Source of the DNA: Sedimentisphaerales bacterium
Lineage (GTDB): Bacteria > Planctomycetota > Phycisphaerae > Sedimentisphaerales > Anaerohalosphaeraceae
Assembly (NCBI GenBank): GCA_016926155.1
Contig: JAFGPC010000183.1
Location: forward strand, 1 to 64,000
Length of the DNA stretch: 64,000 nt
Reading direction: 5' to 3'
Under the pieces are notes generated by a model. It searched no databases and was not told the DNA's origin. It was given only the letters and a program-made list of their open reading frames with translations. This document shows positions 1 through 18,092 of the stretch, piece after piece. The position numbers and the translations under genes are program-made. Position 1 is the first letter of the stretch, and each line of letters opens with the position of its first letter.

Positions 1-3000
1 AGACGCCCCTTCCGGAACGAGAACCACATCGGTGTACACGGACGTGTCGGGAACGGTCATCGAGAAGGTGGCACTGACAGGCGTATAGCCGCCATGCTGA
101 AGAATGCCTCCGATTCGGAATTGAGGAGCCTCGACTTGTGGATACAATTGAGCGGCCTTTAGCTGATCCAGGACAATATCTGTCCGAACGGAAAGGAACG
201 TGTCAACCAGATAGTCCTTTACTTCCGCCCACCAGTGGGCACGTGTATAGGGAGAGTCCACCCGGTCCGATCGATGATCGCCCCATCGAGCTGACTCGCC
301 AATAATGGCCAAATCAATTTCGGCTGCTCTCTGTAGACACAGTGCCTTGGCACGATCCGGCGTCAAGACGCCATCATTGAAGAAGTATTTGTGCACTTGA
401 TCAGCGAAATGCATTCGATATTCCGGATGAACAGTAAGTTTTTGATGAAGCCACTGTGGATTGAAATGCTCTATTGCCGAACCTGCACTTACCCATGTCG
501 TACGGTTGTCATCCGTACTTAACATTGAATGCTCCGAATCATAGGCAAAGAACTGCCATCCTTGCCGAATCCGGGGATCACGATTGCGAATAGCAAAGAA
601 GTTATTCGCTGCCGTTCCGCTTAGCGTAACCGGTGCATCCCGATTGCCCGTAAAGAAAATGTCAATCATGTAATCGATGAGATTGTCAACATCCACATGT
701 ACTTCAAGAGCGGGATCATTTTCACCGATTGGGTTTTTTCCTTGGACAGCGTAGTACGTTTCATCTGTATCGAATCCTGCCTCGCACATCCACCAAAGCT
801 CGTTCCACTTATCAAGGGTTCCATCAGTGTACCCTGTACTATAGTTATCGGCTTTTACTACATCGTATTTCTGCTTATCATCTCCGAAGTATCGCTCCGC
901 ATAGGAAGCCTCGGAACGTTCCTGGCTTTGATATAATCCCCAATACTGCCCGTTGATATAGAGGTGATAATAACGGCTTGCCGTATAAGGCTGATTCATT
1001 TCACGTTGGAGGTCACGCGAATAAACATCTCTAATAAACGTATTCCTGCTCCCATCATTGCCCCAGTTGCTCCAGGCATAGTTCTGAGCTGTTCGCAAAT
1101 CAAGATCGTCAAATTCATCGGCTCTTTCATCCCCGAACAACGGATATTCGAGTTTGCCTCGACCGTAACCCCCTTTGAACAAAAGACGAAAAGAGTGTTT
1201 GGGATTAGTGCCACTTCGACTATATCCACCCCGAATGCGAAGTCCTGCATCCGTCTGGAAGCCCTCATCGCCTTTGGCATCAATCAACTCTACCGAAGTG
1301 GGACGCTCCCATTGAACGCCTTCCCTTGTAGCGTTCACATAAATACCACTCATCGGATCCACGAGGTATTCAAGATCGGTGACGAGAGAAATGGAAGGTA
1401 TGGCTTTCATTACGTCAATCATAAGCGAGCTATATTCTTCGCTGTCGACAATGTCTGGATCCATACCGTATTCAAATGTCTGCCCGTTGACAGAGCCTGT
1501 GGGCCAACCGGATGGCGTTTCACCGCTGGGTGATTGCCTGATGACATCGTCGAGGAATATATACGTATGAGTGTCAACATTGGTACTAAGCCAGCCCTCT
1601 TTAAATGCTACCGCACGCAAACAGGTTGTCGAGGCAATAAAAATGGGTATCGTGTATGTATCTCCATTGGATAGAGTCGGTGTACTGCCGTCGAGGGTAT
1701 AGTGAATAACGGCTCCTTCCGTCTCACATTGAATCCGTACATCGAAGGATTGACCTGCTTCATAGAACCCACGATTGACGCTGAATTTCGTATCCGCCAC
1801 CGCACCCGCCCAGGCAGTGCTGTTGGGTGCTTTCGGCGTAGGTGTTTTCAGATAACCCCTTAAACCATTGTTTCCTGTCCCATACGAGATCAGTCCTCTT
1901 TGAGGGGGATACTGTGGAGCATACTGGTGAACAATTGTTACTCCGTCGCTCCAGACGAGAGCCAGATATTCTCCATCCCCACTCAGCTCAAAGTTGGTAT
2001 GGAGATTTCCCGCATCATCGACATAAGGGAAATTATCCGGATATTCGTCTGCCGTCTTTCCGGAAGCATAAACCACCAAATAACCATCGGCAGGAATAAA
2101 AACATCGGAGAATTTCCACTTGGTGAGATTTTCCGGATCATCCGTAAGATACCAGCCTTCCAAAGAAACTCCGTTATCCATACTTGTGTTGTGAAGTTCG
2201 ATCCAGTCGGCATGTTCGGCAATTCCATTAACAGTGGTATGGATATCTGTGGAATTAAGAAATGGCACGTATGAATTAACCGCCATGAACTCGCTTATCT
2301 CCACCAAGTCGGACTTGTATTTCCAATTCTCAGCCAGAATAGCCAGGTCGGCCATACCAACACCATCGATCCGGTTCAGATCTGCACAATCAAGGCCGAA
2401 GCATGTGGCATTCAACCACTGCCCTGAAAAGAGGAGCAGATCGGCCAGATCCACATTCCCATCCCCATTGAGATCCCCCGTAATACCTTGGTGACGAGTC
2501 TGGAATGTCAGATCGTCGATCAGTAATGTGGCTGCGCTGCCGACCTTTATTTGGATCTTACCAACCTGGCTCCAGCCAGGTTTTGCAGCAACATCGACTG
2601 GGACACCCATAATTGCCCATTCGGTTAACAGGGTAGCATCAGGTAATGTGAAGCTTTCAATAATATTTTCATCTCTGTCAAGGACAATCAGTGTTACGTC
2701 CCCCTGAATATTTTCCGGAGCGCCTTTGATTCGGACAACCAGATCCTGGCCGTCATGAATCGAATAGTCAAAGACCTCATTCATATCCTTACTCACAACC
2801 CCAAGGGCCGGTAGAATCGCTTTCATGGCTCCGGCACCCTGATTTGTGTCATATGTTTCCAGATATAATTGTCCTATGGAACTCCAAAACATAAGCAGAT
2901 CGGCTGTTTCTGTATAGGTCTCGAAATTATCAGGTACTAACACCAAAGGATTCCCCATGCATGCTTCAGCATGAAAACGGATCTGCTCATCGGTAAGAGC

Positions 3001-3651
3001 TCGGTTATATACTACTGCTTCATCCAGCAGTCCATAGAAAGCATCGGCGGATGTGCCCGCTCGCCCTCCCAGGGTCGCCAGTGGCAAATTAACCGAACTC
3101 GCATGTGTTCCAGCCAATTCCCCATTGATAAAGAGCTGGGTACCCATACCGTTACATCGGAAAACCAAATGCTTCCATTCATTCAATGGTACAATAGCTT
3201 CTCGTCCGGGCTGCTTTGTGAACTGATAATCCGCTACACCATAGAGAGTGAAAGAGGCTTCCTGCATGCTCCAGCCCTGGACACGCAAGGACGATATTCC
3301 ATCATCATGCAATGCCTGGGATGCACTGGCTTTTTTCATCACAATATATTCAGCGGTCCAATCAAAGGAGATCGGTGAAACAGATCCGAAAGTAACAAGA
3401 CTTGAGCCGAGAAACTCCACTGCTGTTGCGGATCCCAGCAGACCTTCTTGTGCCAGGGCCACAGAACTATAGGTCCCGATCAGGGAAGCACTTCCATGAT
3501 CGATACATGAGTCGCCCGAGGTTTCATCAAACCGATACCAATGAAGTGGATCATCTGCCATCACGGCAGCATCCCACAAATCGCCGCCGTATGCCGACTG
3601 GGCCCAGACATAGATTACCACGATGCAGACAAAGAAAAACTTTTCTCTCAT
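1..3651 (-). CDS. Secreted CotH-kinase / lamin-tail / LamG / dockerin-like protein, 3' end beyond window
   Basis: The frame is open for 1217 codons from ATG at 3651 to the window edge with no stop, so the C-terminus is missing. Order: hydrophobic signal peptide (about residues 1-20), LamG-like jelly roll (25-235), a sandwich module (240-375), a dockerin-like calcium loop with the DLNGDGNVDLADLL pattern (380-440), a lamin-tail domain (450-580), a chitobiase C-terminal-type module (about 620-690) and a CotH domain (about 740 onward). The CotH part shows WGLYQSQER and YDSEHS near 1034, typical of the family. CotH proteins are secreted atypical kinases; the substrate here is unknown. GGAG lies 7 nt before the ATG. 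It lies 92 nt downstream of another CotH gene on the same strand. Family assignment is firm; biological role is not. Confidence 0.85.
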   Translation of the reverse strand, partial: MREKFFFVCIVVIYVWAQSAYGGDLWDAAVMADDPLHWYRFDETSGDSCIDHGSASLIGTYSSVALAQEGLLGSATAVEFLGSSLVTFGSVSPISFDWTAEYIVMKKASASQALHDDGISSLRVQGWSMQEASFTLYGVADYQFTKQPGREAIVPLNEWKHLVFRCNGMGTQLFINGELAGTHASSVNLPLATLGGRAGTSADAFYGLLDEAVVYNRALTDEQIRFHAEACMGNPLVLVPDNFETYTETADLLMFWSSIGQLYLETYDTNQGAGAMKAILPALGVVSKDMNEVFDYSIHDGQDLVVRIKGAPENIQGDVTLIVLDRDENIIESFTLPDATLLTEWAIMGVPVDVAAKPGWSQVGKIQIKVGSAATLLIDDLTFQTRHQGITGDLNGDGNVDLADLLLFSGQWLNATCFGLDCADLNRIDGVGMADLAILAENWKYKSDLVEISEFMAVNSYVPFLNSTDIHTTVNGIAEHADWIELHNTSMDNGVSLEGWYLTDDPENLTKWKFSDVFIPADGYLVVYASGKTADEYPDNFPYVDDAGNLHTNFELSGDGEYLALVWSDGVTIVHQYAPQYPPQRGLISYGTGNNGLRGYLKTPTPKAPNSTAWAGAVADTKFSVNRGFYEAGQSFDVRIQCETEGAVIHYTLDGSTPTLSNGDTYTIPIFIASTTCLRAVAFKEGWLSTNVDTHTYIFLDDVIRQSPSGETPSGWPTGSVNGQTFEYGMDPDIVDSEEYSSLMIDVMKAIPSISLVTDLEYLVDPMSGIYVNATREGVQWERPTSVELIDAKGDEGFQTDAGLRIRGGYSRSGTNPKHSFRLLFKGGYGRGKLEYPLFGDERADEFDDLDLRTAQNYAWSNWGNDGSRNTFIRDVYSRDLQREMNQPYTASRYYHLYINGQYWGLYQSQERSEASYAERYFGDDKQKYDVVKADNYSTGYTDGTLDKWNELWWMCEAGFDTDETYYAVQGKNPIGENDPALEVHVDVDNLIDYMIDIFFTGNRDAPVTLSGTAANNFFAIRNRDPRIRQGWQFFAYDSEHSMLSTDDNRTTWVSAGSAIEHFNPQWLHQKLTVHPEYRMHFADQVHKYFFNDGVLTPDRAKALCLQRAAEIDLAIIGESARWGDHRSDRVDSPYTRAHWWAEVKDYLVDTFLSVRTDIVLDQLKAAQLYPQVEAPQFRIGGILQHGGYTPVSATFSMTVPDTSVYTDVVLVPEGAS

Positions 3652-3743
3652 TTTGCCGCTCCATCCATCTGATAACAGTTCTTGCCGCTTTTCATCATAC
3701 CAGATTGACTTCAAGATTGCCAGGAAACCTGCGTTCTATATAT

Positions 3744-6700
3744 CTAACGGCTCGGCGATGGATTATCAGCAATCCAATTATCCGGATCATTCGAAGCGGC
3801 CGCCGGAAGGAAGTGGATTCGCTGCAGACTTTTTCCTGTCCCATCCGCCTCCGGCGGCCATGGAATCTGGTCGCTGTAGCAAAGTTCATCTATAATCACC
3901 CATGGAATATCCGTATCAGGCAGGTCGGGCGAAAGGGGCTTTTCCAGTGAGATCCATTCTGTACTATTCGCAAGGTCTCCGGTCCACGATCCCAGGATAT
4001 CCACGCCCAGTGTCAATGGCCCGGTTTGGTATATTGTTATGAAATTGTCCAATCGTCGGGTTTCAAGAGCCGGATCGAAGTCAACTATGATCAATCTAGT
4101 ACCGCTAGCGAGGGAAATCCCCTGGGGCATTTCATACTCGATACCGCCACGAAGTTTCCAAGTACCAGTATCTGTAAACAAATCAATCGTCCGCGAGGTG
4201 GGATTGAATAACTCGATGTATTCCTCCGCGCCCTCAATGGGATGATACATAATTTCACTTATGATAATGTCGAGATAGGGAATTTCATTTCCACTTGCCT
4301 CTGTCGGAATCATGCGGAAGAAGAAGTCCCCCCCATCAGGATAACGCCCCAGCGATAGCAGGTTTTCCTGGCCTTTGAATCCTATGCTGTCCACAACACG
4401 GCCAGGACGATCAATAGGCAGGTAAGAAAGAAAGACCTGTTCCCCGGCTTTGTTTAAACCAAATCCATCCGGATAGGGAGAATGAAAACCGGTTACTTCA
4501 TCGAACGCGACAAATGTGTTTGTTTCCAATACCATATCGGCAATGCACCACTTCTTCAGGTCTTTTATGTCATCGCTGAGATACAAGTCCCGTAGGGGAG
4601 CCTCGGATTGACTTGTATTATAAAGTTCAATCCAGTCGTTTGAATCATACTCAGGATATGCAGGATTAGTATAGTCAGTGTGTGCCATGATCTCATTCAT
4701 AACCAGCGTGTTCTCAAGTATTGGATCATCAGTGCCGGGAGAACCATATATATAAGCGCTGGCCCGCCAATTGCCGCCGTATTGCAGGGAACCGCCTGGC
4801 TGATCGGCTATCGCCCGATCCAAAGGAACCAGAGAATGTCCGGATCCGTCGGCGGAGATGGGCCAGCCGCGTGAGTCATTGTATTCGAATTCAGCGATCG
4901 TGCCGTTCCACTCATCCACCAGCTTAATCAGTTCTCCCTCGTTGGCTAGTTTCTGATCGTTTTCCGGAGTGGAGTATTGCCCGGCGATTTTTGTGGAAAA
5001 GCCCGAACCATAGCGATTCTCGAAAGCCTCCTGATCTCGGACAACTAAAACAAATTCACCGGCCGAAAGAGTCCGAATGGAGCTTGTTGCAAAGGCAAAC
5101 TGCACTCCTTCGACGAAAGCGACAGCCGATAGATCGAGTTCCTCCTCGCCTATATTTTTTAACTCGATGAACTCAAAGTCATCATTGTCATATATGCTCC
5201 CATTTATCGGTTCAGCGGGATTAAACATTACCTCGGTAATCCGTAAATTCTGCAGAATCCCCGCAGATAAAGGTTCACCAACAGTGAATTGTTCGGGCTT
5301 TGACCAATGGCTCCATCGGCCGGAATTGTCTTTCATACGGCATCGTACTCGGTACATATGACCCGGCCTGACGGCAACCGCAGGAATACGCACCCAGGTT
5401 TGAGCGGGATCGAGGATCTCATCACTCTCCCAGACAGTCTCAATTTCATATCGTCCGGGCTTTATCGTATAGATTCCTATTGGACTGGATCCGCCGCCAT
5501 CTGTTTTTGGTTTGGCCGTTAGACGAATATCGATGAAACAGTCATTGCTGTTGTTTTTCGAGACGTTTAGTAACTGAACTGCCATCACATTCGTGCCTGC
5601 CGCCAAAAAGTCATTCGGAACAAGATGTGTGAATACGACAAAACTATCCTCTTCTCTTGAGGATCGGGCTGTAGCATCGAATGTGAGTTCTTGGGAATCC
5701 ACATTATCACCGGCAAAGAATCTGCCATTGATCCAGGCGTTAAAACCGTCGTCATATCGTACTTCCAGGGTGATTGACTCAAAGGCATTCGGATCGTCAA
5801 TATCAAATGGTTTCCGCAAGTAAAGTGTTGTATAGCTGTATTGCATATCAATGTTGGTTTCGATAAAGGATTCACCATAGCCAATAGGCAGATCACCTAC
5901 AAGCCAATCGGTGGTGTCGGGATTATCATTGTATCCGGTGTAGCGCCATGCATCCTTAGGATCGGATGGTTCAATGCGCCCCTTGAAGTATCTCCATGAG
6001 GAGTTTTCCGAAATAAGAAGCATGTTCTCGTTCTGTGGAATACGTGCCCACGGCCGCACTTCGGCAATCCTCCACTTCATGGCGCCGAATGTGTCATTAC
6101 CTTGTGGATCATCAAAGGCGCTGGTTGCGAAGGTCAATCCATTTGCCGGCAGTTGTCCAGGGCCTGTATAGGAGATCACTGGAGTATTGGGTATTTCAGG
6201 ATCTTCAATAAGGAAAGACAGACGGGAACCGCCCCATCCATCGGGTGAAATGAATTCCTGCATTTGTTGTACCATGCCTTTAAAATCCCCAGTTGGCGAA
6301 GCGCCATAGAATCTGCCGGGATGCTGTATTTGCGGATGATAATCCCAGAGTATGCGGTCGGCATCAACAAACGTTGGACCTCCAACCGAATCATTGACCA
6401 TAGTGGCGTGCTCCTCAATCAGTTGCCCGCACTGTTCGACATTCAAGAGCAAGTCGCTTAACTCACGAGCGCGGTTCTGAAAGGCCAGAGTATTTGCGGG
6501 GTAGCTGCGGAACATACTGGAGCTTACATGAGGAAATAGCCGGTAGTCCAAGACTTGTTTCCAGCGTTCATCATCATGTGTGTAGATATCATAATCCCAG
6601 GACAGGTCCACATCCCAAGGCATAATCCACCACTTCTCGGTAGACGGATGACGATAGTACATGCAGTTCCATCGATCCGTCAGGTCATAGTGGTGTACCG

Positions 6701-9700
6701 CGTCACATATAATTCGATAGCTGAAATACCTGTCTAATTCTGCATTATTATTCCACCAAGCTTCTCCTGGGTAGTTACGATAGGCCCTGCAGAAGTTTTC
6801 CACATCACTGTGATCGGTTACCTGTGTAGGACCCTGATTGTTTTTGTTGCCGCTGTCACCGCTGATTGGAAAGAACATTTTGTAAAAATTCCCATCGGGT
6901 AAATTACGTTCATCAAGAAACTTTCCATCCGGTTGTTCCAAAGCCAGATAGAGTCCCCAGAAATCGCCAACGTACTGATCTGTCGTTGCTTCCTGTTCCT
7001 CATCGATGACTCGAAAATGCACCCAATTCGTGTTGCTCGCCGGTACTCCAGATAATTGAAACAGGCGAAACGTCACAGCTTCATACATACCCTGTTCACC
7101 CCGATTGTCGGAAGCCCCAACCTGCTGGATACAGGCAGAGAAATTTAACTTGTCCCATTTCTCCTGATACTTTTTTCCATAGTTATCTCTTGCCTGGAAA
7201 AGATGTCTGCGATGGAAATCGAACTTCCACTTATTCTTGCCCCATGCATAGGCGCTCCACCATCCGCGGTTGCGATACCAGATATGGTCATACACGATCC
7301 CATCATAGACCAGAGCGCCGGTCCACTGGTACCATTGGGCCTGGGGTGACGTGTGGCTGATGGGTTCATATTGGCACTGCTGGATATCCTCCGCTTTGGC
7401 GATCAGATGATAGATTGGCAGAGAATTCATTACATCCCTATTCACTGTGATCGGTTCATCAATCCCCGGGCGAACCGCACCGGTCCAAGCCGGTGCGCTA
7501 TCGTAGACAAAGTAAGCAAAGTTCGGCTGGGGATCATCATCATACGGCACTTTTAGTACATACCCCAATGAATCTTCCATAAGAATGCGATAACGAATCA
7601 ATCGCCGATGCATCTGGATATCAGAACCGATCTGGACGGTATAGATATGATCAGCAGCAATCCGATCCCCCTTTATACCGTTATCGTTCATGGGAACACT
7701 GATCCATCCATTTTCATATTCAGGATCCGGCAATCGATTATTATTGCCGTCGGAATATTCATACCGGATATATCGGCCCGGTTCGACGATCTGATATTGA
7801 AGAGTCACTTCCACTACACCATCCGGATCAGTCACTTTCGCGGTGATCGTCACTGTCTGGTCCGAAGAAGGCTGCCTGGGACTGTGTTCTACTTGCCGTA
7901 TGTGGGGAGGAACGTTAGTCGCAAAGACCTGTGTGTTTTCCTCTCCCGGTGTTGGAAAAGCGCTGCGCCAACTGCCCGCCAGGTCATTATCCATTGCAGG
8001 ATTGACCAACTGGATAGACCAACCGCTGCCCGCCTGACCGTTGTGTGCAGGAACCGGATCGCCTACTGTCGGCCAGGGAAAACCAAGTTGGTAATCCACC
8101 TGGTCCACCTCATTGTCCATTGCGTCGCACAGTTTAATCTTCTCTCCCTCATTGCTCAGTTTGCCCTCAAACGGGCCATACACAAGGTTTGATGGTGTAC
8201 CAAATTTTTCAATTATCGTAATTGGATCATGGGCAGTTGCAGGATCCTCGGCGACAACCAGGAAACCACCCGCGGGCATAATCGTTCCTGCGGGAAATTC
8301 ATAGGCAATCCCATCACAAAAATGCCAGCCCGAAAGATCAACATCTAATGGTCCGGTATTATACAGTTCAACAAATTCCACTCGTTCGGTTTTAACATCC
8401 GGATCATAATGAATTTCATTAATAATGATTCGTGATTGGACTTCCGTCCGCCACTCTTGAGCCATTACGGCAAAGTCCGATACCCGTACCCCATCGCCGC
8501 CTACAAAATCCGCAGGGTTTCCCGGTTCAGAAAGCCATTGTTGAGCGAATAATACTAAGTCCTGTAGGAAAACAGCGCAATCGCCATCCATGTCGGCCTG
8601 CGGACACTCGATTGGTTTCTGTCGTGTGGTAAAGGACCATACGTCTCCCGGAATCGTCAATTCGCCCTGGATATACTGGTCTATCTGCCAGTAGTATGTG
8701 GTCAATTGCGAAAGGCCTTCAATAAGAAAGCTGGGGGAGGATCCCTCGTATACAGGTGTTGGATCCAATGGCAGAGAGGCGCCCAGGTAGAGTTTGAACG
8801 TATCAACGAATTGGTCCGGCGACCATACAAGTGTGGCATCGGGTATGGTTACTTCCATCGCACCATTGACGGGAACGGGCAATATCGCTTTTCCCCCCGT
8901 TTGGAAACTCCACAGCGTACCAGTGTGAATCTCACTACCTTCTACAACATCAACACGCCAATAATAGTCCTGACTCCACTCCATGGCAGGGCTGAACATT
9001 GCCGTAGTCAGATCGGTTTCGACCACGTTCCAGTCGTTGGGATTACGTCCGAAATAAAAATTGTATCGTGCATCAGCTACATCCTCCGGCGCCCGCCAGC
9101 GAAGCGGATCCGTTCGGTTAATCCCGGTCGCCTTGTCTACCGGTGTGGGGCCCCACGCCGTTTTGTTTTCTCCGAAGGGCCTTCCATTCATACCCGCATT
9201 GTAGATTTCCACGATTTCCGAGGCAGTGAGAGCCCGCTCCAGAACCGCTACGTCGTCAATCACCGCCACCAATGGATCAACCGATCGGCTGATCGTTGCC
9301 ATGGGACAGGAAATCGAAACATTAATTATTCCTTGGAACTGTCCGTCAGCCCAGAGCGATACGCTCGAATTCGTACCGATAAAGACCAAGTGAACCCATT
9401 CGTCCACTGGAGCAATGTAGTCAAATGAGTGATCGGCGACACCATATACTGTGAATCCAACATTTTGCGTATTGGCGTATTGCTCCAGCCGCAATGAGTA
9501 GGCGGAAGAATTAAGCAGGGCGGCCGAACGCGTGTGTTCCAGCTTCCTGACCCACAGAGAGACCGACCATGGAGGGGTTATATCCTCCGCTCCAAGATCG
9601 AGATACTGGCCGACGCGGCTGTCGATGGAGATACCCCCGAGGAGCATACCTTTCACAAATCCGGCTCCGCCGATGGCCGTCCCATGAATGCCATTCCCGG

Positions 9701-9818
9701 AATCATCCAGTGTATTCCCGTCGAATGGCCAATATGCAATCAATCCCTCCGTCGCATCCACATATCCACAGAATAATCCCACCAGCATCACAGAAATTAC
9801 GCATATATGAGTAAACAT
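3744..9818 (-). CDS. Giant secreted CotH-kinase protein with LamG, dockerin-like and four lamin-tail domains
   Basis: About 2024 residues. An upstream in-frame ATG exists at 9887, but the ATG at 9818 puts a proper signal peptide first (MFTHICVISVML..., cleavage near VDA), so it is preferred; no convincing ribosome site supports either. Order in the longer numbering: LamG (47-240), two Fn3-like modules (245-425), dockerin-like loop with DMDGDCAVFLQDL (about 430-485), lamin-tail domain (about 487-600), a sandwich region, CotH core (about 780-1130) with YWPFDG-type LamG features upstream and WIMPWDVDLSWD in the core, then three further lamin-tail repeats (RITEVMFNP, LVMNEIMAH, IIISEIMYHP) in the last 500 residues. 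It probably acts outside the cell, on or bound to polymers. It differs from its downstream neighbour in domain order, so the two are not a recent duplication. Confidence 0.85.
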   Translation of the reverse strand: MFTHICVISVMLVGLFCGYVDATEGLIAYWPFDGNTLDDSGNGIHGTAIGGAGFVKGMLLGGISIDSRVGQYLDLGAEDITPPWSVSLWVRKLEHTRSAALLNSSAYSLRLEQYANTQNVGFTVYGVADHSFDYIAPVDEWVHLVFIGTNSSVSLWADGQFQGIINVSISCPMATISRSVDPLVAVIDDVAVLERALTASEIVEIYNAGMNGRPFGENKTAWGPTPVDKATGINRTDPLRWRAPEDVADARYNFYFGRNPNDWNVVETDLTTAMFSPAMEWSQDYYWRVDVVEGSEIHTGTLWSFQTGGKAILPVPVNGAMEVTIPDATLVWSPDQFVDTFKLYLGASLPLDPTPVYEGSSPSFLIEGLSQLTTYYWQIDQYIQGELTIPGDVWSFTTRQKPIECPQADMDGDCAVFLQDLVLFAQQWLSEPGNPADFVGGDGVRVSDFAVMAQEWRTEVQSRIIINEIHYDPDVKTERVEFVELYNTGPLDVDLSGWHFCDGIAYEFPAGTIMPAGGFLVVAEDPATAHDPITIIEKFGTPSNLVYGPFEGKLSNEGEKIKLCDAMDNEVDQVDYQLGFPWPTVGDPVPAHNGQAGSGWSIQLVNPAMDNDLAGSWRSAFPTPGEENTQVFATNVPPHIRQVEHSPRQPSSDQTVTITAKVTDPDGVVEVTLQYQIVEPGRYIRYEYSDGNNNRLPDPEYENGWISVPMNDNGIKGDRIAADHIYTVQIGSDIQMHRRLIRYRILMEDSLGYVLKVPYDDDPQPNFAYFVYDSAPAWTGAVRPGIDEPITVNRDVMNSLPIYHLIAKAEDIQQCQYEPISHTSPQAQWYQWTGALVYDGIVYDHIWYRNRGWWSAYAWGKNKWKFDFHRRHLFQARDNYGKKYQEKWDKLNFSACIQQVGASDNRGEQGMYEAVTFRLFQLSGVPASNTNWVHFRVIDEEQEATTDQYVGDFWGLYLALEQPDGKFLDERNLPDGNFYKMFFPISGDSGNKNNQGPTQVTDHSDVENFCRAYRNYPGEAWWNNNAELDRYFSYRIICDAVHHYDLTDRWNCMYYRHPSTEKWWIMPWDVDLSWDYDIYTHDDERWKQVLDYRLFPHVSSSMFRSYPANTLAFQNRARELSDLLLNVEQCGQLIEEHATMVNDSVGGPTFVDADRILWDYHPQIQHPGRFYGASPTGDFKGMVQQMQEFISPDGWGGSRLSFLIEDPEIPNTPVISYTGPGQLPANGLTFATSAFDDPQGNDTFGAMKWRIAEVRPWARIPQNENMLLISENSSWRYFKGRIEPSDPKDAWRYTGYNDNPDTTDWLVGDLPIGYGESFIETNIDMQYSYTTLYLRKPFDIDDPNAFESITLEVRYDDGFNAWINGRFFAGDNVDSQELTFDATARSSREEDSFVVFTHLVPNDFLAAGTNVMAVQLLNVSKNNSNDCFIDIRLTAKPKTDGGGSSPIGIYTIKPGRYEIETVWESDEILDPAQTWVRIPAVAVRPGHMYRVRCRMKDNSGRWSHWSKPEQFTVGEPLSAGILQNLRITEVMFNPAEPINGSIYDNDDFEFIELKNIGEEELDLSAVAFVEGVQFAFATSSIRTLSAGEFVLVVRDQEAFENRYGSGFSTKIAGQYSTPENDQKLANEGELIKLVDEWNGTIAEFEYNDSRGWPISADGSGHSLVPLDRAIADQPGGSLQYGGNWRASAYIYGSPGTDDPILENTLVMNEIMAHTDYTNPAYPEYDSNDWIELYNTSQSEAPLRDLYLSDDIKDLKKWCIADMVLETNTFVAFDEVTGFHSPYPDGFGLNKAGEQVFLSYLPIDRPGRVVDSIGFKGQENLLSLGRYPDGGDFFFRMIPTEASGNEIPYLDIIISEIMYHPIEGAEEYIELFNPTSRTIDLFTDTGTWKLRGGIEYEMPQGISLASGTRLIIVDFDPALETRRLDNFITIYQTGPLTLGVDILGSWTGDLANSTEWISLEKPLSPDLPDTDIPWVIIDELCYSDQIPWPPEADGTGKSLQRIHFLPAAASNDPDNWIADNPSPSR

Positions 9819-9988
9819 TCCAATCGTTGAAACAATCTTTGATTCGTCATCGATCATAACTTGAAAAGTTTCCCACGAAATACTCATATTATGCTTTTAT
9901 CGTCAATCCGGTCCAGCGGTTCAATGAAAACCAGTAGAAATAAACCGTAGAGACTCATCTGGAACCAATAATCACAAACACAAATAAT

Positions 9989-10023
9989 ACGGACCTATGC
10001 CAGGATTATTGACACAGGTCCGT
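9989..10023 (-). terminator. Inverted repeat between LamG gene and CotH gene
   Basis: ACGGACCT at 9989-9996 and AGGTCCGT at 10016-10023 form a perfect 8-bp stem with a 19-nt loop, 53 nt past the stop of the 10076-12103 gene. Only a loose T-rich run (TATTATTTGTG) follows on the minus strand, so it may be a terminator or an RNA-end stabiliser separating the LamG gene from the CotH genes. Confidence 0.45.
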
Positions 10024-10075: not shown

Positions 10076-12103
10076 TTATTCACAGAACGTAGCCGGTTCT
10101 CGACCGCATTCCATCCACGTCGCTGCAAGTATTGCGAAGTCGGCAAGATCGACACGACAGTTACCGTCGTAATCATAAGGCAGCAGCACGTCGTCAAGAC
10201 ATACCCAACTTCCCCATAATGAGAGGATGTCATTGGTTGGATTGTCATCTTTATCCTGCCACGGAAGCTTACCGTCCCAGATAGTAAAATCATCCACCAT
10301 GCCATCAAAGTAAGCATTGTGATCGAGGCCCAGCGGTGAAATACTGATGCGATTCATAGCATCGGAAAGGGACACAGCTCCCTTGCCGATTTCCTTGCCG
10401 TTCTTGTAGATATACAAAAATTGAACCCATTTATCATACGTCACGGTAATCATCTGCCACTTACCAACATCCAAAGGCTCGGTTGTAATAATATCTCCGT
10501 AGTGCGGCCAGAAAGCAATGTTACCACCCGAAGAATACACCTGTCTCATTGAGCCGGCTTCATCAGTATCACCGGTGTAGAACTCACTTCTTCCGAAACC
10601 GCCCAACATTACAGTGCTTACAGGAACAGCATTGAGATAAACCCATTGATTGATGGTCCAGGAACTTGTCGGACTGAAAATATTCTCGACTCCTTCAGGA
10701 AGAACAACATTTTCTGCTATGACAATATAGTTGGGATCCGGACCGAAGACAAGAGCGTTATCGCCCGGTTGACCCGTGTTTCCGCCATCGATCGCCCATA
10801 TGGCAGGAAATGTATAATCAAGAACACCGTTGATGCCGTTGCCACTACTGTCGACAGCAATCTTTCCTTCAGTTTCATCAAATTTCCAGTCCACGACTTT
10901 GACAGGATCCTTGTATGGCGGGCTCAACTCGATGTTATCAAAGTTAAGCGTACCGGCGGCGGACACCTCGATAATAAGCTGAGACGTTACGTTCCAAGGA
11001 AAATTCGGATCGGATGCATTTACACTCAGTTTGATCCAGTTCCAGTCGGCCGAAGTAGTGCCGGTTTCAGCGGTCTGACTGGCAAAAGGAATACCGTTGG
11101 GATCTGCTACTTTTAAGGTTACTGTCCCTTCGACATTGGCTGGGTCACCTTTGAACCAGACAACCAGTTCCTGGTCGTCTTTGTCGGTAAGATCGATATC
11201 GCGCGGAGTATCCTTGATCAGCGCACCACCACCTTCATCGAAAATCGCCTTCATGGAATTGTTGCCGTCATAGGAAACTGCGGTATCCAGTAAAACTGTT
11301 GCACCGTTACCTGTCCACAACGAATTCAGCGAATCACTGTTTTCATATAGTTCAAAACCATCCGGAAGGAGTTCGGGATTATAGGCATGCGAATGCTTGG
11401 CAAGTTCAATATCGCTCAGAGCACGATCGAAAATCACAGCCTCATCCATATACCCTTCCATTGCATCGGAATCCGAGTCACGACGGCCACCAAATGTCTC
11501 GATAGGACAATCGATATTCAGAGAAGTGGTTCCGACCAGTATCGCATTGATAAAAACCTGTGTTTTACCGGCCTTCTTTCGGAATGTAATGTGAGACCAC
11601 TTGCCTACCGGAACAATAAGGCTTGTTCCCGGTTCAGGATCGAACTCTGCATCCCAGACACCATACTCTGTGAAACTCAGTCTTTCCTCGGTATTCCAGC
11701 CGACAAGCCTTAATGAAAAGTCAGGACTGTCACAAAGCGCCTGAGCCTGTGTCGAAGTATTCTTCTTGACAATAAATTCTGCCGTCCACTCTGGAGTTTC
11801 AACGGTTCCGCCGCTGGTCCACATCAGGTCATTCTGGCCGCCCCTTTCGAACAAGACGGCTTTGCCCGGCCCAAACGCACCCTCCTGATTCAGGTCGACC
11901 AAAGAACGATAAGTACCATTGAGTCCCCCACTGCCGTAGTCGATACAGTCCGTGCCCGATAGCTCGTCGAATTTGTACCAGTGCAATGGATCCGAAGCGT
12001 TAATTGCCGCATTCCATGCAACTTCATCTGCAATTGAAGCCGTCGAAATCACACAAAGAATAAGAAAAAGCAAACCATATTTATTTTTGTCGTTCTTTAT
12101 CAT
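10076..12103 (-). CDS. Secreted LamG-sandwich-LamG protein with C-terminal dockerin-like motif
   Basis: 675 residues. Signal peptide to about A25 (ISTASIA/DEVAW), LamG (26-245), a carbohydrate-binding-like sandwich (250-400), second LamG (405-640), and one dockerin-like calcium loop at the extreme C-terminus (DYDGNCRVDLADFAILAATW). There is no recognisable catalytic domain, so binding or scaffolding on a polysaccharide is the likely role. AAGGAG at 12111-12116 lies 7 nt before the ATG. It is paralogous along its whole length to the gene upstream at 12185-14185 (both begin the mature protein with a WNAAINAS/WDAAINAS stretch and share the LHWYK/LNWYK start of LamG). The single loop is unlike a classical paired clostridial dockerin, so cohesin binding should not be assumed. 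Confidence 0.85.
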   Translation of the reverse strand: MIKNDKNKYGLLFLILCVISTASIADEVAWNAAINASDPLHWYKFDELSGTDCIDYGSGGLNGTYRSLVDLNQEGAFGPGKAVLFERGGQNDLMWTSGGTVETPEWTAEFIVKKNTSTQAQALCDSPDFSLRLVGWNTEERLSFTEYGVWDAEFDPEPGTSLIVPVGKWSHITFRKKAGKTQVFINAILVGTTSLNIDCPIETFGGRRDSDSDAMEGYMDEAVIFDRALSDIELAKHSHAYNPELLPDGFELYENSDSLNSLWTGNGATVLLDTAVSYDGNNSMKAIFDEGGGALIKDTPRDIDLTDKDDQELVVWFKGDPANVEGTVTLKVADPNGIPFASQTAETGTTSADWNWIKLSVNASDPNFPWNVTSQLIIEVSAAGTLNFDNIELSPPYKDPVKVVDWKFDETEGKIAVDSSGNGINGVLDYTFPAIWAIDGGNTGQPGDNALVFGPDPNYIVIAENVVLPEGVENIFSPTSSWTINQWVYLNAVPVSTVMLGGFGRSEFYTGDTDEAGSMRQVYSSGGNIAFWPHYGDIITTEPLDVGKWQMITVTYDKWVQFLYIYKNGKEIGKGAVSLSDAMNRISISPLGLDHNAYFDGMVDDFTIWDGKLPWQDKDDNPTNDILSLWGSWVCLDDVLLPYDYDGNCRVDLADFAILAATWMECGREPATFCE

Positions 12104-12184: not shown

Positions 12185-14185
12185 TTACAATCCCTCAGGA
12201 TATCGACCGGAATCCAGCCAGGCATCAAGGAACGCCGCCAAATCCGCAATATCAATAATACAGTCGCCGTTCGTATCGTAGGCCGGAGGATTCGTGCAGA
12301 CCCATCCAGCATACATCGAAAGGATGTCGTTGGTCGGATCGTCATCGTCGTCCGTCATTGGAAGTACTCCGTCAAAGATACTAAAATCGTCGATCATCGC
12401 CGTCAGGGGCGGTTGATTCGCAGCATCTTCCCAAGCGACAACTCCAGTTCCGATCTTGATTGAGTTTTCAGTAACATCGATAAGAGTATCGTTTTCGCTG
12501 GAAATTACATATGCGTCAAGATACATCGTAAACTGTCTGCTCCACTTGTCATATGTAACCGTCAACATATGCCACTCGCCAAGAGAAGGCTCCGTACCAG
12601 GCCACATACCATTTTCACCGTAGTTGAACTCTACTGAACCACCGGTCCAGAAGTTGAAATAGCGGTCGTTATATCCGGAACCGTCCACAAATACACAATC
12701 ACCAAAACCGGCAATCATGGTGGTACCGGGATCGGCTTCAATTTTAACCCAGATATTCATCGACCATGATGAATCTCCCTTGAAAATATCTTCTACATCA
12801 AGCTGTGACAGGTCAATATTAAGCGCCGTAATAGACTTCGTAGCATCACCGTCGAACAAAATCGCATTGTCGTCCGGCTCCCCTGTACGGCCACCACCAA
12901 TAATCCAGTTACTGTCGCCAAATCCGCCGTTAAGTACTCCGTCGATATCGTTGCCGGAACTATCAACTGCAACAGCACCGCTCGACTCGTTGAACAGCCA
13001 CTCGACAACCTTACGGGCCTTAGGAACGACAATACCAAGATCATCAACATAAATCGTCCCGCCGCCTGTAACTTCGATCTGAATCGAGGCTATATTCACC
13101 CATGCAAGGTTCGGATCGGAAGCATTCGGAACCGCAAGAACAATTTCTGTCCATTCATCTTGTTGTATCACACCCATAGAGGTTGTACTGCTGACAGGAT
13201 TGTCGTTCGGATCGAGAACACTCAACATAATGTCGCCGGCCTCATTACCCGCATCGCCTTTGATCCAGACAACAAGTTTTTTCCCGGCATCACTGATATA
13301 GTCCGACATGGATGCAACGATTGTTTTCTTGATCGTATCACCGGCGGCGACTTCGGCTTTCATAGACTGCATCCCCTTATGAGTCTCACTGGTTTCCAGC
13401 ATGATAGTTCCATCGCTGTTCCAAAGCATTGCCATCGCCGCTGTATCCTGATAGCCCTCGAAATCGTCATAGGCAAGATCAAGCCATGGAGCAGCTATCG
13501 CAGCATGAGCCGCAATTTCCGTATCATCCAGCGCTCTGTCATAAACGACCGCTTCATCAAGAAGACCATAAAACTGATCACCCGTGGCTTTACTTATTCG
13601 ATCACGAGGCAGGTCTACTGTATTCGTTTGCGTACCTACGAGAATACCGTTGATAAATGCCTGAATCCCCTCGCTGTTTCGGCGAATCACAAAGTGAATC
13701 CACTTGCCTATCGGAGCAGAATGAGTCTGACCCGGCTGGACGGTGAAATAATAATCCGCTACGCCATACTGAGTAAAACCGACATTTTGAGTATCCCAAC
13801 CCTGAATACGAATCGAGGTCGAGGATCCGTCATGCAATGCCTGGTTTGCAGTACCATTTTTCATAACCAGATACTCAACCGTATAATCATCGGTAAGATT
13901 AGTTCCGCCAAACTGAATCACCGAACCAAGACCTCCGTCAAACTCAACAGCAGAACCCGCTCCGAAAACTCCATCCTGCCCCAGCGACACATTCGTATAA
14001 GTACCGTTAAGACCGCCTGAGCCGGAATCAGAACATACAGTTCCCTGTGCTTCATCAAGCTTGTACCAGTTTAATGGGTTTGATGCGTTAATGGCCGCAT
14101 CCCAGTTCGCCTCTTGCCCAATCGCTGAGCCGACACCGATCAGCATTGACACAGCAAGAAGCCCAATTGTTTTTCTCCCAGTCAT
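12185..14185 (-). CDS. Secreted LamG-sandwich-LamG protein with C-terminal dockerin-like motif (paralogue)
   Basis: 666 residues with the same order as the downstream gene: signal peptide (1 to about 23, GSAIG/QEANW), LamG, central sandwich with VVWIKGDAGNEAGD, second LamG, and a final DTNGDCIIDIADLAAFLDAW loop. The ATG is preceded by a near-perfect ribosome site (GAGGAGGT, 14193-14200, 8 nt spacing), one of the strongest in the window. It is first in the four-gene minus-strand run and has a long, palindrome-rich upstream region that may control the whole set. Export and binding are inferred from the signal peptide and LamG fold; no enzyme motif is visible. Confidence 0.85.
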   Translation of the reverse strand: MTGRKTIGLLAVSMLIGVGSAIGQEANWDAAINASNPLNWYKLDEAQGTVCSDSGSGGLNGTYTNVSLGQDGVFGAGSAVEFDGGLGSVIQFGGTNLTDDYTVEYLVMKNGTANQALHDGSSTSIRIQGWDTQNVGFTQYGVADYYFTVQPGQTHSAPIGKWIHFVIRRNSEGIQAFINGILVGTQTNTVDLPRDRISKATGDQFYGLLDEAVVYDRALDDTEIAAHAAIAAPWLDLAYDDFEGYQDTAAMAMLWNSDGTIMLETSETHKGMQSMKAEVAAGDTIKKTIVASMSDYISDAGKKLVVWIKGDAGNEAGDIMLSVLDPNDNPVSSTTSMGVIQQDEWTEIVLAVPNASDPNLAWVNIASIQIEVTGGGTIYVDDLGIVVPKARKVVEWLFNESSGAVAVDSSGNDIDGVLNGGFGDSNWIIGGGRTGEPDDNAILFDGDATKSITALNIDLSQLDVEDIFKGDSSWSMNIWVKIEADPGTTMIAGFGDCVFVDGSGYNDRYFNFWTGGSVEFNYGENGMWPGTEPSLGEWHMLTVTYDKWSRQFTMYLDAYVISSENDTLIDVTENSIKIGTGVVAWEDAANQPPLTAMIDDFSIFDGVLPMTDDDDDPTNDILSMYAGWVCTNPPAYDTNGDCIIDIADLAAFLDAWLDSGRYPEGL

Positions 14186-16540: not shown

Positions 16541-18092
16541 ATGTCGTCAAACAGTAAGGATCTTCAGTTGCTAATAAATCGACGTCAGTTTCTCCAGGCG
16601 GCTGGGGCAGGCGCTGTTTCCATAGCTTCATTGAACCCTGCATGTTTATTGGCACAGGAAGAATCTGCAAAGCTTTCCCCTCCCAATGTTCTGGTCATCT
16701 TCGATGATCAGCTCCGAGCAGACGCGTGCAGTATCTATGGAGGCAGGAACATCGAAACACCCAATATCGATCTGCTTGCCAGGCAGGGAGTGCGCTTTAC
16801 CAATGCCACATCCACCTGTCCCCTCTGCACTCCCTTTCGAGGCATGCTTCAGACCGGCCGGTACCCAACGCATTCGGGGTTGGTCCTGAATTGGGTCGAG
16901 GCCAATCCCAACCAAAGATGCATTGCCCACATATTCAAAGATGCAGGTTACCATACCGGCTTTATTGGCAAATGGCACCTCTCGGCCGGAAGGCTCAAGA
17001 AGGCAGGCAAGTATAAACCCAACCAAGAAGCCATCCAAGCCTACGTCCAAGAAAATCCGAATACCGAATTCACGCCCCCCGGCCCAAACCGTCTTGGATA
17101 CGACCATTGGGAGACATTTAACTTTCACTGCACTTTTCACAATTGGTGGTTCTACCGGGATGATCCGCAAAAGATCGTGATGCCCGGATACGAAACCGAC
17201 GGCGAAACCGATCTGGCCATAAAGTTTATGAAAAAGAACAAAGACTCCAACAAACCCTTTTTTTTTAATGATGGCCCCCCATCCACCGCATCCGCCATTT
17301 GGTATTCCTCACGTACCCGAAGGCTACCTGGAGGAGATCCCGGAACAGCTTCATTGGTCTCCCAATGTTCCTGAAAACCATCCTCGCAGGAAGAATCCGC
17401 TTCAAGCTCGCTGCTACTACGCGATGGCGAAAAATATGGATGACAACGTCGGCCGAATTATGAAATTCCTCGATAGTTCGGGCCTTGCAGATAATACCAT
17501 CGTCGTATTCACCGCCGACCATGGCGAACAGCATGGCTCGCACAACCGAATCAATAAGATGGTTCCTTATGTCGAGTCAGTGAACATTCCACTGATTATT
17601 CGCTGGCCGGGAAAAATACCTGCCGGGACTACCAGTGACGAGCTTTACAGCCCCATGGACCACATGGCTACATTGTGCGGGCTGTCAAGACTAAAACCAT
17701 CCGACACCTCCGACGGAATCGATCTAAGCAGGACCGTCCTGGACAAGGGTAGAGTAAATCGCGATGAATTAATGATGATGAATTATGTCTCGCATTGGGA
17801 TTTCTTCCAATCGGGAACGTCATGGCCGGAGTGGAGAGGCGTCAGAACAAATCAGTACACTTACGCCAAGTGGCTGACCGGCCAGGAAGAGCTTTACGAC
17901 TACGCAAGCGATCCGTACCAGATGAATAACCTGGCCTAGAACCAAAAGGACCTACCTCGGCTCAAGAAGATGCGTAAAGTGCTGAAAGACCTGCTCGCAC
18001 AGGCACATGATGAGTTCTTGTCAGGCACCCAATACGCAGACTGGTATGACGATCAACGTAATCTGGTACGCACAGCCTTGGGCCCGATATGA
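16541..18092 (+). pseudogene. Tat-exported sulfatase, broken by a frameshift and a nonsense codon
   Basis: The N-terminal part (16541 to about 17260) carries a twin-arginine signal (NRRQFLQAAGAGA), the metal site NVLVIFDDQ and the formylglycine motif CTPFR followed by GMLQTGR, so it is a cysteine-type S1 sulfatase. At a run of nine T (17258-17266) the frame is lost. The next frame continues with the family sequence (MMAPHPPHPPF, then FTADHGEQHG) as far as TAG at 17937-17939. Past that TAG the same frame stays sulfatase-like (PRLKKMRKVLKDLLAQAHDEF) to TGA at 18090-18092. One T fewer would join the halves, but the TAG would still cut about 50 residues. AAGGAG sits 17 nt before the ATG, farther than usual. 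This is probably a decayed gene; a homopolymer sequencing error could explain only the first lesion. Confidence 0.85.

Follow-up and report, generated by a model that had tools for sequence, protein, structure and literature searches.

Two adjacent genes at the start of a contig from a Sedimentisphaerales bacterium, here called A and B, encode proteins that follow one module order, while their CotH domains come from two distinct subclasses of old origin. The window analysed is the whole stretch of 64,000 nucleotides that begins at the first base of this contig. A and B are probably secreted CotH-fold kinases that belong to a large modular family in a polysaccharide-degrading bacterium. The equivalents of the catalytic Asp and of the metal-binding Asp are kept; secretion, anchoring and phosphate transfer are what we infer from these sequences.

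Module order of proteins A and B

The two genes lie in tandem on the minus strand. Their extents and modules are as follows (LTD, lamin tail domain).

1–3651, minus: gene A, putatively secreted, class I CotH, 3′ part missing at the contig end; order LamG, CBM-like spacer, dockerin-like loop, LTD, CHB_HEX/Fn3_assoc, CotH
2980–3204, minus: LamG of A, best Pfam stretch (PF13385, E = 1.1e-13)
2311–2481, minus: duplicated dockerin-like loop of A, abutting the LTD (20.7 bits, below the Pfam cut-off; weak matches to dockerins in the PDB)
1912–2319, minus: LTD of A (Pfam, E = 3.6e-09)
1561–1770, minus: CHB_HEX_C_1/Fn3_assoc module of A (Pfam)
139–1512, minus: class I CotH domain of A, aligned and modelled span (Pfam core 232–1242)
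532–639, minus: active-site stretch of A (D292 at 637–639, N304, D325 at 538–540, E327 at 532–534)
277–297, minus: ESARWGD motif of A, typical of class I CotH
3744–9887, minus: gene B, putatively secreted, class II CotH, complete ORF of 2047 aa; order LamG, two Fn3-like repeats (recognised by eye), dockerin-like loop, LTD, Ig-like stretch, CotH, Rha78A Ig, three LTDs
9213–9611, minus: LamG of B (Pfam, E = 1.6e-09)
8439–8600, minus: duplicated dockerin-like loop of B, abutting the LTD (not in the Pfam Dockerin_1 list at E up to 0.1)
8091–8438, minus: first LTD of B (82 bits)
6198–7523, minus: class II CotH domain of B, motif PWDVDLSW (Pfam core 6393–7094)
6606–6686, minus: active-site stretch of B (D of HHYDLTDRWN at 6684–6686, first D of PWDVD at 6612–6614)
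5277–5456, minus: Ig_Rha78A_N module of B (Pfam)
4077–5249, minus: three C-terminal LTDs of B (4878–5249, 4521–4712, 4077–4271)

A first, sequence-only reading had described two big secreted CotH-type proteins encoded in tandem, and this description was partly confirmed. Both proteins carry LamG, LTD and CotH matches above the Pfam cut-offs, a hydrophobic, signal-like N-terminus and a duplicated dockerin-like loop. Against PF08757, whose curated cut-off is 23.8 bits, the CotH domain of A scores 77.1 bits (E = 2.3e-21) and that of B 59.8 bits (E = 4.1e-16); the LTD match of B has a Pfam E value of 2.1e-47. The start of A was taken at the ATG at 3651, the ORF itself opening at a TTG at 3714, and the real start of B may be the ATG at 9818.

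Base 1 of the window is base 1 of the contig, so gene A runs off the contig end. When the cut end was compared with all other contigs of its own genome no match was found, and an extension of A was rejected for want of a contig with matching sequence. Of the sizes reported before (more than 1200 and about 2000 residues), that of B stands and that of A reflects this cut. A relative of A in a Sedimentisphaerales MAG (L043), 71% identical in the CotH domain and 58% across 1213 aa, is complete at 1941 aa, and has one LTD before CotH and three after it. B also has three LTDs after CotH, and the difference in LTD copy number between A and B thus most likely results from truncation, the further LTDs of A lying beyond the contig end.

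The order of the modules, which had been called different, is also the same: both proteins read LamG, spacer, dockerin-like loop, LTD, spacer, CotH, and in both the loop is joined to the first LTD without a linker. It is the spacers that differ, with CHB_HEX/Fn3_assoc in A and an Ig-like stretch in B. In a MAG labelled Kiritimatiellales (L044), a protein with an LTD-CotH core 64% identical to that of A is preceded by a LamG/Ig-like stretch different from the front of A, which indicates that front modules get exchanged.

The common order, the adjacency of the genes and a weak alignment of the N-terminal half of A with B (24% over 578 aa) would fit a recent tandem duplication after which the CotH domains diverged. 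The CotH domains themselves argue against such an origin. They show no BLASTP similarity to each other (E = 0.21), and in the tree a long branch (support 1.000) sets them in separate clades, where A groups with its L043 relative and B with paralogue C119, near C25. A recent duplication was therefore rejected as extremely improbable, unless the CotH domain was swapped later.

Active site, fold and proposed function of the CotH domains

The earlier proposal that the aspartates be checked against CotH gave a positive outcome. A search with a class I profile matched B. cereus CotH (5jd9) at E = 7.5e-6, and one with a mixed set including B at E = 1.4e-17. The profile alignment places D292 and D325 of A on the two key Asp of 5jd9, where chain positions 224 and 247 correspond to D228 and D251 given a numbering offset of 4, itself inferred. 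The equivalent of D228 is D292 in A and the D of HHYDLTDRWN at 6684–6686 in B; that of D251 is D325 in A and the first D of PWDVD in B. The substitutions D228Q and D251A in B. subtilis CotH are described as catalytically inactive (PMC7821199). Loss of the catalytic residues from both CotH domains, named beforehand as the observation that would speak against the proposal, was looked for and not found, since both equivalents are present in A and B and the domain of A models as CotH.

Among 90 class I domains from several phyla, K105, E198 and D325 are invariant, and D292, N304 and E327 are each kept in 89. The W-D-x-D motif is represented in A by Y-D-S-E, and D-x-E is found in 89 of the 90 domains. 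The second Asp of this motif, a Glu in A, is present in B (WDVD), in 5jd9 and in the other paralogues; it is not a known requirement and is therefore not decisive for family membership. Conservation of ESARWGD in class I is partly biased, since this stretch had itself served as one of two patterns in the search.

The CotH domain of A is confidently predicted to have the fold of B. cereus CotH. Its model (pLDDT 93.2, pTM 0.93) finds as its best solved match the CotH structure 5jda with Mg/AMP (E = 5.5e-12, TM 0.74 on the target). The model of the B domain, built from two sequences alone, reached a pLDDT of 32, and B is assigned to CotH by its sequence. Bacillus CotH (5jd9/5jda) thus has its fold in common with the A domain and its catalytic-residue equivalents in A and B. 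It differs in being a spore-coat protein devoid of the modules described above, whereas A and B are signal-bearing multidomain proteins, and in having D-x-D where A has D-x-E.

In BFVD, CotH-fold domains of Bacillus phage G Gp353 and of several tailed phages match the model of A, with E values down to 1.5e-12. A search for viral relatives of class II CotH gave none, and a search for NCBIfam names likewise gave none. The class I paralogue C8 (L041, gene 6026–10003) is without equivalents of D228 and of the N, and may by its sequence be a pseudokinase. Two further proteins, in L025 (C137) and L029 (C182), represent a third CotH subclass with a PHDMD/VHDLD motif and, in the alignment, a Glu at the D228 position.

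For the kinase reading favoured here, A and B would be secreted through Sec, their LamG and LTD modules would hold them at the cell surface or on polysaccharide, and they would phosphorylate targets bound in their vicinity, either further secreted proteins (on Ser/Thr) or glycans. Such modification, or anchoring, of an extracellular layer by A and B had been suggested at the outset and may apply. Against a kinase role stand the secretion of bacterial proteins into surroundings with no obvious ATP supply and the Glu at the second acidic residue in the subclass of A; in an unsystematic look, moreover, no protein with Ser/Lys/Arg repeats like those of CotB/CotG emerged as a substrate candidate.

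An alternative, which the lack of an obvious ATP source outside the cell would suit, is that the CotH domains are binding or adhesion folds in which phosphate transfer is absent or unimportant, A and B being adhesins or structural parts of a surface layer. Mucorales CotH3 and CotH7 offer a precedent, since on the surface of these fungi they serve as ligands for the host receptors GRP78 and integrin (PMC7267888). They are CotH-family surface proteins like A and B, but they are eukaryotic, carry other modules, and receptor binding is the function shown for them. The remainder of A and of B consists of binding modules, and at least one paralogue (C8) has no D228 and N equivalents. An adhesive role is possible but unlikely, as the residues equivalent to the catalytic ones are almost perfectly retained among 90 relatives from several phyla, to a degree that a scaffold would not require.

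A second question is the substrate. Fam20B phosphorylates xylose, and a comparable kinase acting on sugars or polysaccharide instead of protein, to prepare or mark glycans, would suit the fusion to LamG and the glycan-degrading genes nearby. CotH is, moreover, distantly related to the Fam20C-type secretory kinases, but the characterised CotH phosphorylates protein, namely CotB and CotG (PMC7821199), and a kinase directed at glycans rather than protein is here regarded as improbable.

Dockerin-like loops and gene neighbourhood

The loop of A scores 20.7 bits against Dockerin_1 (PF00404), below the Pfam cut-off of 22.9, and the loop of B gave no match to this family at E up to 0.1. The first loop of A has the ligands D-N-D-D-D (GDLNGDGNVDLAD); the first loop of B is one Ca ligand short, and the second loops of both are degenerate. 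At least 149 dockerin-like loops were counted in the genome, and of the 17 CotH proteins of the genome with such a loop, 12 have it fused to an LTD with nothing in between; the loop model drew in part on these CotH proteins, the position of the loop did not. No cohesin (PF00963) match was obtained at E up to 0.1 in this genome, which is 96% complete, and cohesin occurs in 3 of the 58 genomes of the order.

With loops so abundant, A and B might be thought to join a complex of the cellulosome type by way of cohesin. In clostridia, proteins with CotH and dockerin are genuine components of the cellulosome (PMC6083626), and a ‘planctosome’ built on cohesin and LTD has been proposed for freshwater Planctomycetes (PMC6461901). 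Anchoring of this kind is nevertheless unsupported, because the loops fall below the Pfam threshold or are missing from its list and cohesin goes undetected; with the second loops degenerate as well, we regard a cellulosome-like complex as very improbable. Of the original proposal, the sequence bears out secreted CotH-type kinases that are fused to binding modules and encoded next to carbohydrate-active genes; a differing architecture is not supported, and anchoring by dockerin has no detectable cohesin partner in this genome.

The closest known plan is that of C. thermocellum Cthe_0239, a protein of 117 kDa with a type I dockerin and the order LTD-LTD-Fn3-CotH (PMC6083626). It resembles A and B in that a single secreted protein combines CotH, LTD and an Fn3-type module with a dockerin, or in A and B a dockerin-like loop. 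In A and B this loop is internal and immediately precedes the LTD; they also possess LamG and have about double the length. Cthe_0239 and the CotH-dockerin protein CseP (Cthe_0044; PMC4711584) belong to a cohesin-based cellulosome, whereas cohesin is undetected in the genome of A and B. The giant secreted planctomycete proteins of the ‘planctosome’ hypothesis, from freshwater Nemodlikiaceae (PMC6461901), resemble A and B in their LTD and dockerin/cohesin modules; cohesin is present there and CotH is not described in the parts of that source available, while here CotH is present and cohesin undetected. By CotH and LTD, A and B belong to this known kind, but cohesin, the defining feature of a cellulosome, is not detected with them. 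A recent review calls the role of CotH in cellulosomes unclear (PMC12484212).

The same-strand run of genes goes beyond A and B, with two LamG proteins of 666 and 675 aa upstream.

9989–10023, minus: terminator-like hairpin between the upstream LamG gene and B, 14 pairs with a T-rich tail (consensus match only)
10076–12103, minus: putatively secreted protein with two LamG and, at its C-terminus, a half dockerin-like loop; identity of its N-terminal half with that of A, 38%
12185–14185, minus: putatively secreted protein with two LamG and, at its C-terminus, a half dockerin-like loop; identity of its N-terminal half with that of A, 44%

A single operon of four genes (A, B and the two LamG genes) was rejected, as the terminator-like hairpin stands before B. 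In 8 of 15 CotH units the gene upstream lies on the same strand and ends in a dockerin-like loop (P about 1e-10 to 2e-7 against an assumed background of 2–5%), and so it does for 4 of 15 other dockerin genes in ten comparison loci (Fisher P = 0.26 against 8/15); these are hand counts of low power, taken once the pattern was already known. Five strong non-seed hits have no recognised CotH gene after them. A dedicated cassette of kinase and upstream LamG gene, not demonstrably more frequent than with other dockerin genes, was therefore set aside, and the pattern fits a general clustering of such secreted genes. A half dockerin-like tail, D..GDC.V.L.DFA..A..W..C, forms the C-terminus of many secreted LamG, F5/8 or Ig proteins of this genome; in the window such tails lie at 10079–10213 and 12191–12316.

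The rest of the window holds genes for GH30, RGL11, two GH127, an alpha-L-fucosidase, a sulfatase and an S9 peptidase. The sulfatase is split over two overlapping ORFs (16541–17939, plus strand; profile positions 1–167 and 175–298), and a T run near their junction points to a frameshift or an assembly error.

The CotH family in the genome and in the order

In the genome of A and B, 23 matches to CotH, spread over about 21 genes, and 63 to LTD were counted. CotH was found in 36 of the 58 genomes of the order, the number of matches per genome running from 0 to 26. Tandem CotH pairs recur in L053, L072 and L098 and, by coordinates, in genomes G035, G049 and G050. The A/B pair is thus beyond chance yet ordinary, being two of about 21 CotH genes on a plan known from cellulosomes.

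Most CotH genes of this genome (C101, C68, C67, C25, C193, C207, C8, C28, C119, C65 and others) are interrupted by the end of a contig, in or close to the 3′ half that is rich in LTDs, and copy numbers taken from short-read assemblies may for this reason be unreliable. Repeats at the contig ends were considered as gene conversion between paralogues. This was rejected, as the paralogues are about 65% identical and just short patches of 50–154 bp near the contig ends reach 88–100%; at least one such patch is probably an assembly overlap.

Class I domains occur in Planctomycetota, Verrucomicrobiota, Bacteroidota, Ignavibacteria, KSB1 and others. We put forward, as a speculative proposal, that class I, with its D-x-E and ESARWGD, is a distinct subfamily of secreted kinases, and that repertoires of at least 20 CotH proteins per genome, laid out on one module plan and aimed by different binding modules, could form a system that phosphorylates matrix proteins or polysaccharide outside the cell.

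With about 21 CotH genes and no detectable cohesin in one genome, the question of kinase activity separates from that of the cellulosome. If the class I domains are active, extracellular phosphorylation of secreted proteins or glycans would take place in many environmental bacteria, and this activity, if true, raises the questions of extracellular ATP supply and of the substrate.
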